Assembly: GCF_024655565.1 (NCBI RefSeq)
Contig: NZ_JANKOF010000053.1
Coordinates: forward strand, 1 to 33,607
Reading direction: 5' to 3'
Source of the DNA: Nitratireductor sp. ZSWI3
GTDB lineage: Bacteria; Pseudomonadota; Alphaproteobacteria; Rhizobiales; Rhizobiaceae
DNA: 33,607 bases
Shown here: one piece after another, positions 3,825 to 6,969 of the stretch
Position numbering within the stretch: position 1 is the stretch's first letter
Layout: every line of letters begins with the position of its first letter
Position numbers and translations under genes: made by a program
The notes under the pieces: generated by a model
Told to the model about the DNA's origin: nothing
The model's database searches: none
Seen by the model: the letters and a program-made list of their open reading frames with translations, nothing else

Positions 3825-4940
3825 TCAGGCGATCCGTGCCTGCGTCTCCGGGTCGAACAGCACCGCCTTGTCGAGGTTGAAGGCGAGCCGTGCCGTCTGG
3901 CCGGCCGAGATCGGTGCGTCGGCGCGCAGCCGGGCGACGATTTCGCGTCCGCCGAGGCGGGTGACGGCGAAGGTGTCGGAGCCGGCCGGCTCGATCACCT
4001 CGATGGCGCAGTCGAGTTCGCTCACATGGCGCGCGTTGCGGTCGGCGCTGTCGGGATCGGTCAGCGCCTCGGGCCGGATGCCGAACACCACCTTCTGTCC
4101 CTTGCGGGCGGCGAGGGCCCCTGCGCCGTTGGCGAAGGGCAGGGCGAGCGGCGCACCGCCCTCGCGCTGCATGACGATGGCGACGTCCGAGCCGCTCGCC
4201 TCGATGGTGGCCGGGATCAGGTTCATCGACGGCGATCCCATGAAGTCGGCGACGAACAGGTTGGCCGGCGTGTTGTAGATCTCGGCCGGCGTGCCGAATT
4301 GCTGCAGCACGCCATCCTTGAGGACGGCGATGCGGCTGGCGAGCGTCATCGCCTCGATCTGGTCGTGGGTGACGTAGACGATGGTCGTGCCCATGCGCTG
4401 GTGCAGGCGCTTGATCTCGGTGCGCATGTCGACGCGCAGCTTGGCATCGAGGTTGGATAACGGCTCGTCGAACAGGAAGACCTGCGGCTCGCGCACCAAT
4501 GCCCGGCCCATGGCGACGCGCTGGCGCTGGCCGCCGGAGAGCTGGCTGGGCTTGCGGTCGAGCAACTGGCCGATCTGCAGCGTTTCGGCCACCTTGGCGA
4601 TGGCCGCGTCGCGCTCGGCCTTCGGCACGCCGCGGATCTCCATGCCGAAGCCGATGTTTTGCGCCACGGTCATGTTGGGATAGAGCGCGTAGGACTGGAA
4701 CACCATGGCGATGTCGCGCTGCGAGGGGTGCAGGTTATTGACCAGCCTGCCGTTGATGCTGATCGAGCCGCTGGTGATGGATTCCAGCCCGGCAATGGTG
4801 TTGAGCAGGGTAGACTTGCCGCAGCCCGACGGCCCGACCAGGACCAGGAAGCCGCCCTCTTCGATCTCCAGGTCTATGCCCTTCAGGACATCGACCTTGC
4901 CGAAGGATTTGCGCAGATTCTCGATTTTCAGAAACGACAT
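3825..4940 (-). CDS. Sugar ABC transporter ATPase, MalK/UgpC type
   Basis: This 371-residue cytoplasmic ATPase energises a carbohydrate importer. It shows Walker A GPSGCGKST (about residues 37-45), a Q-loop in VFQSYALYPNMTV, the signature LSGGQRQRVAMGRAL (about 134), Walker B VFLFDEPLSNLDAKLR and the H-loop in YVTHDQ. The C-terminal third (from about residue 240, MGSPSMNLIPA onward) is the OB-fold TOBE domain of MalK/UgpC proteins, with VFGIRPEAL. It belongs with the permeases at 5213-6969 and the binding protein at 7132-8385. Here, however, it is separated from the permease gene by 272 bases filled by a palindromic element. The only ribosome-binding-like sequence before the ATG is a weak AGG 11 bases upstream, contributed by that element. 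Confidence 0.93.
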   Translation of the reverse strand: MSFLKIENLRKSFGKVDVLKGIDLEIEEGGFLVLVGPSGCGKSTLLNTIAGLESITSGSISINGRLVNNLHPSQRDIAMVFQSYALYPNMTVAQNIGFGMEIRGVPKAERDAAIAKVAETLQIGQLLDRKPSQLSGGQRQRVAMGRALVREPQVFLFDEPLSNLDAKLRVDMRTEIKRLHQRMGTTIVYVTHDQIEAMTLASRIAVLKDGVLQQFGTPAEIYNTPANLFVADFMGSPSMNLIPATIEASGSDVAIVMQREGGAPLALPFANGAGALAARKGQKVVFGIRPEALTDPDSADRNARHVSELDCAIEVIEPAGSDTFAVTRLGGREIVARLRADAPISAGQTARLAFNLDKAVLFDPETQARIA

Positions 4941-4944
4941 GGGT

Positions 4945-5215
4945 TAGGACCTGTGGACAGTTATGGTTGTGGCGCTGGCGAGGCATGCAAGACCAATGGC
5001 TAGGCGCAAAAACCGCCGCAGTGCCGGCCACTTCAAGGTTTTTGCAACGAAGTCCATTGGTCTTGCATGCCTCGTCCCGAAGGGATTTGGCCAGATTGCT
5101 CCATGGCCGCAGCCTTCGTCGTCGAATATGCTCTGCATGTCCTTCCTCCTCAGGCTACGACCCTGGAGCAATCTGACCAAACCAGCACCGCAACCATAAC
5201 TGTCCACAGGTCCTA
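4945..5215. mobile_element. 267-bp MITE-like palindromic element flanked by TA
   Basis: Terminal inverted repeats 4947-4978 and 5182-5213 are identical at 30 of 32 positions (they begin GGACCTGTGGACAG). Each end is flanked by TA (4945-4946 and 5214-5215), which looks like a target-site duplication. Inside, 4979-4999 pairs perfectly with 5054-5074 (21 bp) and 5006-5014 with 5037-5045 (9 bp), giving a first hairpin arm of 96 nt. TCCC (5075-5078) pairs with GGGA (5082-5085) as a mini-hairpin. 5086-5102 pairs with 5165-5181 (16 of 17), giving a second 96-nt arm. The four helices abut with no unpaired base between them. No transposase is encoded. It fills the whole gap between the permease stop and the ATPase start. 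A TA target is typical of IS630 and of part of the IS5 family, so it may be a non-autonomous derivative of such an element; this is inference. Confidence 0.8.
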
Positions 5216-6094
5216 GCCCTTCACCGCGCCGGCCATCAGGCCGCGCACGAAATAGCGTCCGGAGACGATGTAGACGATCAGGGTCGGCAGCGCGGCGAGG
5301 ATCGCGCCGGCGAAATGGACGTTGTATTCCTTCACGCCGCCCGACGAGGAGACGAGGTTGTTCAGGGCCACGGTCATCGGCAGTGAATCGAAGTCGCCGA
5401 AGGAAACGCCGAACAGGAAGTCGTTCCAGATGTTGGTGAACTGCCAGATCACCGTGACGACGATGATCGGCGAGGATGACGGCAGCAGGATGCGCCGGAA
5501 GATCTGGAAGAAGCCGGCCCCGTCGATCTGCGCGGCACGCACCAGCTCGGTCGGGAAGGCCGCATAGTAGTTGCGGAAGAACAGCGTCGTGAAGCCGAGG
5601 CCATAGACCACGTGGATGAGAACCAGCCCCGTCGTCGTGCCGGCAATGCCGAGAAAGCCGAGGATACGGGCGGCGGGAATGAGCGCGATCTGGAACGGGA
5701 TGAAGCAGGACAGGAGGATCAGCCCGAAGACCACGTCGTCGCCGCGGAAGCGCCATTTGGTGAGCACATAGCCGTTGAGCGCGCCGAGGACGGTGGAGAT
5801 CGCCACCGCCGGCACCACCATCAGGATCGAGTTGAAGAAATAGGGCTTGAGGCCGGTCGGCTGCACGCCCACCTGGGCGCTCGACCAGGCCTTGGCCCAT
5901 GGCTCCAGCGTGAACAGCGCGGGCAGCGACAGCATGTTGCCCTGGCGGATCTCGTCGAGCGGCTTCACCGAGTTGACCACCATCACGTAGAGCGGCAGCA
6001 GGTAATAGACCGCGAACAGCACCAGCACCGTGTAGAGCAGGGCGCGCAGGAGCCGGTTTCCAGTGGTCGTGCCGACCATCTTCTCGTCGCTCAT
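5213..6094 (-). CDS. Sugar ABC transporter permease, MalG type
   Basis: The product has 293 residues. The start at 6094 is supported by GGGGAGG upstream and by the ATGA overlap with the preceding permease gene. A first membrane helix lies at about residues 18-38 (LYTVLVLFAVYYLLPLYVMV), followed by NSVKPLDEIRQGN, a usual feature of MalG-type permeases of the glucose/mannose (GtsC) group. The EAA loop is at about residues 182-206 (VRAAQIDGAGFFQIFRRILLP), and the protein ends RGLMAGAVKG. It pairs with the 6091-6969 permease. Its stop codon TAG is formed at the junction with the palindromic element: T and A lie in the flanking TA and G is the first base of the element. Without the insertion the stop would read TAA. 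Confidence 0.92.
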   Translation of the reverse strand: MSDEKMVGTTTGNRLLRALLYTVLVLFAVYYLLPLYVMVVNSVKPLDEIRQGNMLSLPALFTLEPWAKAWSSAQVGVQPTGLKPYFFNSILMVVPAVAISTVLGALNGYVLTKWRFRGDDVVFGLILLSCFIPFQIALIPAARILGFLGIAGTTTGLVLIHVVYGLGFTTLFFRNYYAAFPTELVRAAQIDGAGFFQIFRRILLPSSSPIIVVTVIWQFTNIWNDFLFGVSFGDFDSLPMTVALNNLVSSSGGVKEYNVHFAGAILAALPTLIVYIVSGRYFVRGLMAGAVKG

Positions 6095-6969
6095 CTCTGC
6101 CTCCCCGGCCTGAGCTCGGAATAGAGATAGGGAATGATGATCGAGAAGATCATCACCAGCATGATGATGGCCGACGAGGCGCCGATGCCCATCTGGTTGC
6201 GGGTGAAGGTGTAGGAATACATGAAGGTAGCCGGAAGCTCGGTGGCCTGCCCCGGGCCGCCGCCGGTCAGCGCGATCACCAGGTCGTAGGACTTGATGGC
6301 GAGATGGGCGAGCACGACGAAGGCGGAGAGGAACACCGGGCGCATCATGGGAATGATGATGCGGCGGTAGATGGTGACGTTTGAGGCGCCGTCCATCTGC
6401 GCCGCCTTGATGATCTCGCTGTCGACCCCGCGCAGGCCGGCGAGAAACATCGCCATGACAAAGCCGGAGGACTGCCAGATGGCGGCGATCACCACCGTGT
6501 AGATCGCCAGGTTGCGATCCTTGATCCAGGCGAAGGCGAAGCTCGTCCAGCCCCATTGGTGCATCGTGTTCTCAAGGCCGATGCCCGGATCGAGAAACCA
6601 TTTCCAGGCCGTTCCCGTGACGATGAAGGAGAGCGCCATCGGGTAGAGATAGATCGGCCGCAGAAATCCCTCGCCGCGGATCTTCTGGTCGAGCAGGATG
6701 GCCAGGAACAGGCCGAGCACCGAGCAGACGACGATGTAGAGCGAACCGAAGATGGCCAGATTGGTCAGCGCCCGCCACCAATGGCGCAGGTTCCACAGCT
6801 TCTCGTAATTGTCGAAGCCGACGAAACCGTAGGACGGCAGCATTCGCGAATCGGTCATCGACAGATAGAAGGTGTAGAGGATGAAAGCGTAGACGAAGAT
6901 CAGGATCAGCGCCATGCTTGGGCTCAGCACCAGGCGCGGAATCAGGTCCTGCAGGCGGTTTCGGTTCAT
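6091..6969 (-). CDS. Sugar ABC transporter permease, MalF type
   Basis: The product has 292 residues. The start at 6969 (MNRNRLQDLIPRL) follows AGGAACCAAC. The frame runs on further upstream to 7068, but that part passes through a hairpin repeat and is not family-like. A short cytoplasmic N-terminus is followed by a first helix (about residues 13-37, LSPSMALILIFVYAFILYTFYLS), then DSRMLPSYGFVGFDNYEKLW, the periplasmic loop typical of glucose/mannose-type permeases. The EAA loop is at about residues 185-209 (IIKAAQMDGASNVTIYRRIIIP). The stop overlaps the start of the MalG-type gene, so the two are translationally coupled. A 162-base gap holding a hairpin repeat separates it from the binding-protein gene. 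Confidence 0.92.
   Translation of the reverse strand: MNRNRLQDLIPRLVLSPSMALILIFVYAFILYTFYLSMTDSRMLPSYGFVGFDNYEKLWNLRHWWRALTNLAIFGSLYIVVCSVLGLFLAILLDQKIRGEGFLRPIYLYPMALSFIVTGTAWKWFLDPGIGLENTMHQWGWTSFAFAWIKDRNLAIYTVVIAAIWQSSGFVMAMFLAGLRGVDSEIIKAAQMDGASNVTIYRRIIIPMMRPVFLSAFVVLAHLAIKSYDLVIALTGGGPGQATELPATFMYSYTFTRNQMGIGASSAIIMLVMIFSIIIPYLYSELRPGRQR

Follow-up and report, generated by a model that had tools for sequence, protein, structure and literature searches.

Rhizobia carry RIME, a palindromic intergenic repeat of the Hyphomicrobiales of about 108 bp, and the 267-nt element described here is set apart from RIME, as generally described, by its length.

Excerpts of PMC2229807 present ERIC, NEMIS/Correia, RPE and YPAL as bacterial miniature inverted-repeat elements (MITEs), which are small, non-autonomous and bounded by terminal repeats, and which form long stem-loops when transcribed. 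According to the same excerpts, these elements mostly have TA at the ends, YPAL and some RPE being exceptions; several bacterial MITEs have contiguous open frames, and the effects of ERIC in operons depend on its orientation. In the pneumococcus, BOX and RUP are folded repeats that occur in operons; stop codons and open frames may be contributed by BOX, whose terminal repeats have been likened to those of a resident insertion sequence (IS) (excerpts of PMC3049150). The Br-REP of Bradyrhizobium was rejected as the identity of our element, as the consensus printed in PMC5082802 is different. Among the titles and abstract openings covered by our literature search, no element of the kind described below was named, and the collection of papers searched contained none joining inverted-repeat transposable elements with translational coupling.

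The element, its insertion site and its relatives

The window, that is, the whole 33,607-nt stretch of Nitratireductor sp. ZSWI3 DNA that was analysed, holds the element between two genes of a sugar transporter operon (Table 1). The initial annotation had described a gap-free four-way junction at 4947-5213, and this is borne out in the minus-strand fold, in which no spare base lies between the helices; the 32-nt terminal repeats with 30 of 32 identical positions and the TA on both outer sides were likewise found where it had placed them. Folded as the plus strand, the element reaches -168.7 kcal/mol, compared with -87.2 (sd 5.3) for 200 dinucleotide shuffles (z -15.4; 0 of 200 as good), and the minus-strand fold is lower still at -190.0 kcal/mol. 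The minus-sense fold is also the lower one in 43 of 60 family copies, a set defined by a length of 255-345, at least 17 of 24 terminal matches and the exclusion by hand of six named loci. The meaningful strand of the element appears to be the minus strand, and this sense, together with the orientation bias, the placement at a stop codon and the reading frame, is what the initial annotation had left out.

On the minus strand the gene order is ABC permease, element, ABC ATPase, and the element sits exactly in the permease stop codon, with the ATPase gene following directly. The empty junction of the nearest relative reads GGATAAGCCATG, and the element is absent from the permease-ATPase junction in 20 of the 21 relatives' loci listed, the remaining one (L029) not showing that junction. 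One record (L012) is titled Bacillus subtilis and encodes a protein 77% identical to the Hyphomicrobiales ATPase at the same gene junction; it is probably a mislabelled or mixed assembly.

Table 1 Features of the element and of its flanking genes in the window
Feature	Coordinates	Strand	Remarks
Whole element, 267 nt	4947..5213	-	read on the minus strand, as are the host operon and the conserved motif
Terminal inverted repeat, 5' side on minus strand	5182..5213	-	30/32 (94%) match with 4947-4978
Terminal inverted repeat, 3' side on minus strand	4947..4978	-	pairs with 5182-5213
Arm B, 96 nt	5086..5181	-	holds the conserved apical motif; source of covariance model R1
Apical motif GAGGAGGAAGGACATGCNNNGCATATTCGACGACGA	5116..5151	-	GA faces GA in three modules set between single pairs; reads also as a Shine-Dalgarno-like sequence with ATG
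Mini-hairpin, 11 nt	5075..5085	-	
Arm A, 96 nt	4979..5074	-	absent in the 156-160-nt copies of G024, G218, G227 and G789
TA target duplication, upstream-gene side	5214..5215		with the element's first base G (5213) forms TAG 5213-5215
TA target duplication, downstream-gene side	4945..4946		TAA with base 4944; original stop of the permease by empty-site comparison
Open frame, 64 codons plus TAA	4944..5138	-	from the apical ATG to the TA of the target duplication; candidate translational bridge; amino acids not conserved
Upstream gene, binding-protein-dependent transport permease	5213..6100 (start not fixed)	-	Pfam PF00528; stop codon TAG made up of the target TA and the element's first base
Downstream gene, sugar ABC transporter ATPase, MalK-type domains	3825..4940	-	Pfam PF00005, PF17912

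A second copy, 99% identical, lies elsewhere in the same genome, where no further convincing copy was found beyond these two. This copy, the empty sites, the diverged TA-flanked copies described below and an IS5-family IS with ends of the main type all support the proposal of a non-autonomous mobile element with TA duplication, and the mobile nature of the element is near certain. The initial annotation had also reasoned that a sequence kept at this locus across genera, with no second copy, would argue for a local regulatory structure, and what was found opposes such a structure. The element is 267 nt long, has no transposase gene, has terminal repeats and a target-site duplication, and occurs in dispersed copies; judged by these sequence features, it is a MITE-like, non-autonomous member of a family of the Alphaproteobacteria.

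The search found 95 family places, one of them too short, and a rule on the ends kept 72 of the other 94 as the first set. The multiple TA-ended copies that had been anticipated are present, with TA on both sides in 49 of the 72 and on one side in 20. A later set of 30 copies was kept from 38 (eight had no clear ends, and three ends were adjusted by hand); it was drawn from six genomes of the class-level sample, with a small number of additional copies from G299 and G096, two genomes already in the first set to which four of the 30 belong, and TA stands on both sides in 18 of the 30. Most copies, 56 of 72 in the first set and 26 of 30 in the later one, are 264-270 nt long. Among 397 genomes of the order, 31 had matches to model R1 at E 0.001, in some cases weak ones, as had 7 of 384 other genomes sampled in the class at E 1e-5 (own genome excluded); copy numbers from the order-wide search, which scored ten candidates per genome, are lower bounds. 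Genome G299 has 13 matches. The apical motif was found within three mismatches in 4 of 151 genomes of the bacterial family, and the distribution of the element family is therefore patchy. Three plasmid queries gave no match, and the exact motif was not found in viral contigs.

Two equal 96-nt arms are indeed present, as the initial annotation had it, and its suggestion that both may be needed is only partly right, arm A being missing from the short copies of four genomes; arm B is thus the more essential part. Other departures from the common form were noted. From position 301 of L149 (G096:C96:10036) a hairpin of ~50 nt retains little beyond the two terminal repeats and is apparently a fully stripped copy, and in L232, L233 and L240 (G227) the right part ends in a common stretch, GACCTCAAAAGGTCCACCGGACC, which looks like the replacement of the right half by some other repeat.

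The terminal repeats of the family fall into several unlike types, GGGYCTGTTGA, GGTCGTGGTGAGGATTTAAC, GAGCGTTTTCAGGG, GGTCACG and GGCTTCGG, and the ends of the window's copy, GGACCTGTGGA, are a variant of the GGGYCTGTTGA type. A full-length IS with the same terminal repeats had been proposed as a check, and an IS with ends of the family's main type is present in G128 (C5:88541-89365, 825 bp including the TA flanks): it belongs to the IS5 family, has the ends TAGGGTCTGTTGA, and encodes transposase pieces in two frames that match NF033580 (transpos_IS5_3), the second piece with 120.9 bits (cut-off 110) and the first with 108.9, just under it. Only 8 of 11 outer letters agree between its ends and those of the window's copy. 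In G013, copies of the GAGCGTTTTCAGGG type and an IS630-type IS (PF13358) of the same genome have common ends, TAGAGCGTTT. No autonomous partner was seen in the draft genome of the window by searches of low sensitivity, one showing only long terminal matches and another using a pattern unfit for the ends of the window's copy, and for ends of the GGTCGTGGTGA type only element-sized pairs or single ends were found in five genomes. IS630 was rejected as the source of the ends of the window's copy, which differ from those of the IS630 copies with findable ends. The element may be moved in trans by TA-duplicating transposases of the IS5 family or the IS630 type, the IS5 type being the most likely for ends like those of the window's copy. 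G128 also contains repeats of ~143 nt (L137-L140) with GGGTCTGTTGA-type ends, TA flanks and an interior hairpin unlike that of the element, and these apparently represent another MITE family that uses the same type of ends.

The conserved core of the interior

The paired changes that would be expected of conserved helices are present: in 52 aligned copies, 71 of 80 consensus pairs show compensatory changes, standard pairs fill 91.8% of pair cells as against 36-41% when partners are slid by 1-3 columns, and cells with double changes number 793 compared with a shuffle mean of 210. The apex of arm B consists of three GA-opposite-GA modules with single pairs between them, and GA stands opposite GA in 43 of the 52 copies in the outer module, in 48 in the middle one and in 37 in the inner one; such an apex would fit tandem sheared G.A pairs. 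Inside the middle module, 38 of the 52 copies have a G-C pair, 13 have C-G and one has G-U, and the pair is broken in none. Because this pair, which lies within the motif, flips from G-C to C-G together with its partner, the idea that the motif is a Shine-Dalgarno sequence only was dropped. One copy (L257) has the middle GA/GA module swapped for Watson-Crick letters.

Read in the minus-strand sense, G.U cells outnumber A.C cells by 67:18 in the stem of arm B and by 20:1 in its apex (a near-invariant G.U excluded), compared with 39:26 in arm A and 46:40 in the terminal helix (12 to 5 by clusters). The structural conservation of the core is strong by these comparisons, and the interior is best described, at the level of sequence, as a single conserved core, of RNA or of single-strand nature, in the minus-strand sense. 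Covariation and G.U asymmetry thus lend weight to the initial suggestion of an RNA function. Rfam gave 0 matches above the gathering threshold in the window and one irrelevant match below it, so that no known RNA family was recognised.

Reading frame, orientation and a possible translational bridge

In the window's own copy, a GGAGG precedes an ATG, from which 64 codons run to the TAA at 4944-4946, with the ATG of the ATPase gene beginning 3 nt past it. Across the 52 aligned copies, the GGAGG of the apical motif is missing in 17 and the ATG is missing at its place in 8. The start codon lies in the frame of the duplicated TA, hereafter the terminal register, in 53 of the 71 first-set copies that have one, and in another register in 18. 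Counted by clusters, starts are in the terminal register in 20 of 30 at 85% identity (p 2e-4; 19 of 29, p 4e-4, without one three-way tie) and in 9 of 13 at 75% identity (p 0.009), p values that are optimistic because the copies are related and ancestry was left uncorrected. Some copies have an altered loop length or start codon yet keep the terminal register (G415; L106 and L113; and, with GTG, L098, L204 and L219, the GTG of these lineages lying five bases further on), and other variants of loop or start codon are out of register (L218, L221, L225, L227, L228, L230 and L238). Extra hairpins or short inserts occur within L090 (G003), L107 (G099), L237, L243 and L249 (G335) and L252 (G415); the frame is in register in L090, L107, L237 and L252 and out of register in L243 and L249. 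Of these, L090 (345 nt) entered only the fold and frame comparisons. The ends of five copies (L206, L103, L223, L224 and L220) were corrected by hand before the first-set counts of start register, frame end and orientation.

Most in-register frames are open: 51 of 53 reach to within 18 nt of the end, a limit chosen after seeing one terminal-repeat type, and 40 stop exactly on the duplicated TA. Counted over all 72 copies, before the five corrections of ends, the terminal register is stop-free in 49 and the other two in 28 and 7; since 28 of the 72 copies have no stop in register 1 either, openness is partly cheap. The downstream sense gene is clear in 40 first-set copies, and in 23 of these no more than 20 nt separate the frame's end from the first candidate start of that gene, compared with 4 and 5 for the other frames; the later set gives 6 of 15, compared with 2 and 0. 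Eight first-set frames overrun the element; six of them (L113, L197, L219, L227, L243 and L245) stop at a candidate downstream start or one base away, and two (L238 and L244) do not, while one of four such frames in the later set (L291) stops at a candidate start.

In the later set, for which the start-codon window was placed on the arm and not, as in the first set, on the motif, a terminal-frame start is found in only 12 of the 27 copies having a start codon; three copies have none. The lineages are mixed, with the terminal register in 3/3 copies of G727, 3/3 of G299, 3/5 of G789, 1/2 of G882, 1/3 of G866, 1/7 of G876 and 0/4 of G622. All three copies of G727 have an exact terminal stop, sense orientation and the upstream stop in the TA, in line with prediction. 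Several lineages (G024, G876, G622) have a closed frame and have kept the core.

The surrounding genes were called by codon log-odds trained on the genes of the window, and therefore on the codon usage of one genome, and both flanks were clear in 57 of 102 copies. A copy was counted as open when its first stop, in any register, lay within the last 18 nt or beyond (61 of 71 first-set copies with a start codon). Open copies have both genes in the sense orientation in 31 cases, both antisense in one (L220, the sole open antisense copy after the flank filter) and convergent or divergent genes in eight, whereas the corresponding numbers for closed copies are six, four and seven. The difference in sense and antisense counts (31/1 versus 6/4) has a Fisher p of 0.008; it is 40/6 versus 8/6 without the flank filter (p 0.024) and 27/1 versus 4/3 with a stricter one (p 0.019). 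In 17 of 18 genomes with open copies these are mostly sense. By set, sense and antisense stand at 30 to 1 in the first and 7 to 4 in the later, in which all four antisense copies have closed frames and are located in G876 and G622. Where the upstream sense gene is clear, its stop falls exactly at the left TA in 27 of 56 cases.

The explanation that we lean towards, by a modest margin of confidence, is that of a MITE-like element whose RNA core may double in many lineages as a translational bridge. The element would insert at a stop-codon TA where two genes follow one another in the same direction; the G with which it begins would re-make a TAG for the upstream gene, and ribosomes would load at the Shine-Dalgarno sequence and start codon on the tip of arm B. 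They would then translate a frame that needs only to be free of stops, the identity of its amino acids being indifferent, and would end on the duplicated TA, that is, on the original stop codon a few bases ahead of the start of the next gene. Translational coupling would thus be preserved across the insertion, which would be tolerated as a result. We infer this bridge from the agreement of register, frame ends and orientation, which it fits well. Against it, the start site lies at the tip of a very stable arm, the GA/GA modules by themselves could account for the apical motif, and GGAGG is lacking in 17 of 52 copies; the closed-frame lineages, the out-of-register starts and the later set count against it as well. 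Since the registers and orientations of the later set are mixed, the bridge would be a trait of lineages and not of the whole family. Moreover, because lineages with closed frames retain the RNA core, the core must have another job, which is probably propagation and perhaps a role older than the bridge.

The same observations can be read in other ways. That the transcribed structure acts on the mRNA in the manner described for ERIC and NEMIS, by stabilising the upstream message, offering an RNase site or causing attenuation, with the frame as a by-product of composition, is an unlikely though serious alternative: the conserved fold with its minus-strand asymmetry, the sense bias in operons and the retention of the core in frame-closed lineages would all follow, and orientation-dependent effects on mRNA are described for ERIC in excerpts of PMC2229807 and PMC3049150. 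However, this alternative leaves unexplained the terminal-register starts across different loop lengths, the frame ends at downstream starts and the absence of a clear sense bias in closed copies (6 to 4). Less probable again is a core that serves transposition, with the arms as cruciform or single-strand DNA seen by the transposase or a host factor, and with the sense bias as purifying selection against polar antisense copies. The terminal helix is after all a transposon terminal repeat, closed-frame copies still keep the core, and the element length is narrowly held despite unlike terminal repeats, all of which this reading accommodates, but arm A can be lost, and the excess of G.U over A.C in arm B favours one strand, although G.T in single-strand DNA could do likewise. 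It also counts against a transposition core that IS5 and IS630 DDE transposases are not known to need one.

Two further alternatives fare much worse. A functional small protein encoded by the 64-codon frame would agree with the conserved start region and with a frame that is open in many copies; it is very improbable and largely refuted by the flat differences at codon positions 1-3 (0.331, 0.328 and 0.343 in 23 non-redundant of 27 copies), with a pN/pS in the same 23 copies of 0.84 in the frame and of 0.84 and 0.89 in the other frames, and by the lack of a Pfam match for the 64-aa frame of the window. That the element is a regulatory structure local to the sugar transporter operon, as the position exactly between the permease and ATPase genes might suggest, has practically no chance of being correct and is refuted by the empty junctions in relatives and by the 99% identical copy elsewhere.

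More tentatively, and with somewhat less confidence than we place in the bridge by itself, the element may be an operon-adapted mobile element that re-makes the stop codon on entry and bridges itself with a sequence-indifferent frame, its core being a portable module of more than one transposase family. Insertions between coupled operon genes are normally polar, and a start codon of its own, a stop-free frame and the return of the original stop through the target duplication would solve this polarity directly, as ribosomes would arrive at the original stop codon, still as far from the next gene as before the insertion. Similarly, one core with several unlike terminal-repeat types would suggest an RNA module that passes between transposon families.

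Comparison with known systems

Two ISs share ends with the family and differ from it in other respects. The IS5-family IS of G128 resembles it in its main-type ends and TA flanks, but has a two-frame transposase and none of the arm A/B core; the IS630-type IS of G013 carries the ends of the GAGCGTTTTCAGGG-type copies, but is autonomous and differs in the rest of the terminal repeat. BOX differs from our element in being modular and of variable length, and the three expressed BOX frames examined had no good Shine-Dalgarno sequences (excerpts of PMC3049150). Since TA ends, open frames and orientation effects are known in MITEs, as excerpts of PMC2229807 and PMC3049150 describe, the element would represent a new kind only if the bridge were demonstrated. 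Compared with ERIC, NEMIS, RPE and YPAL as those excerpts portray them, the 267-nt element is larger and forms a four-way junction with a conserved GA-rich apical motif, its family combines one core with several unlike terminal-repeat types, and its frame begins at a start codon inside the element and in most cases runs to the target duplication, where it stops.
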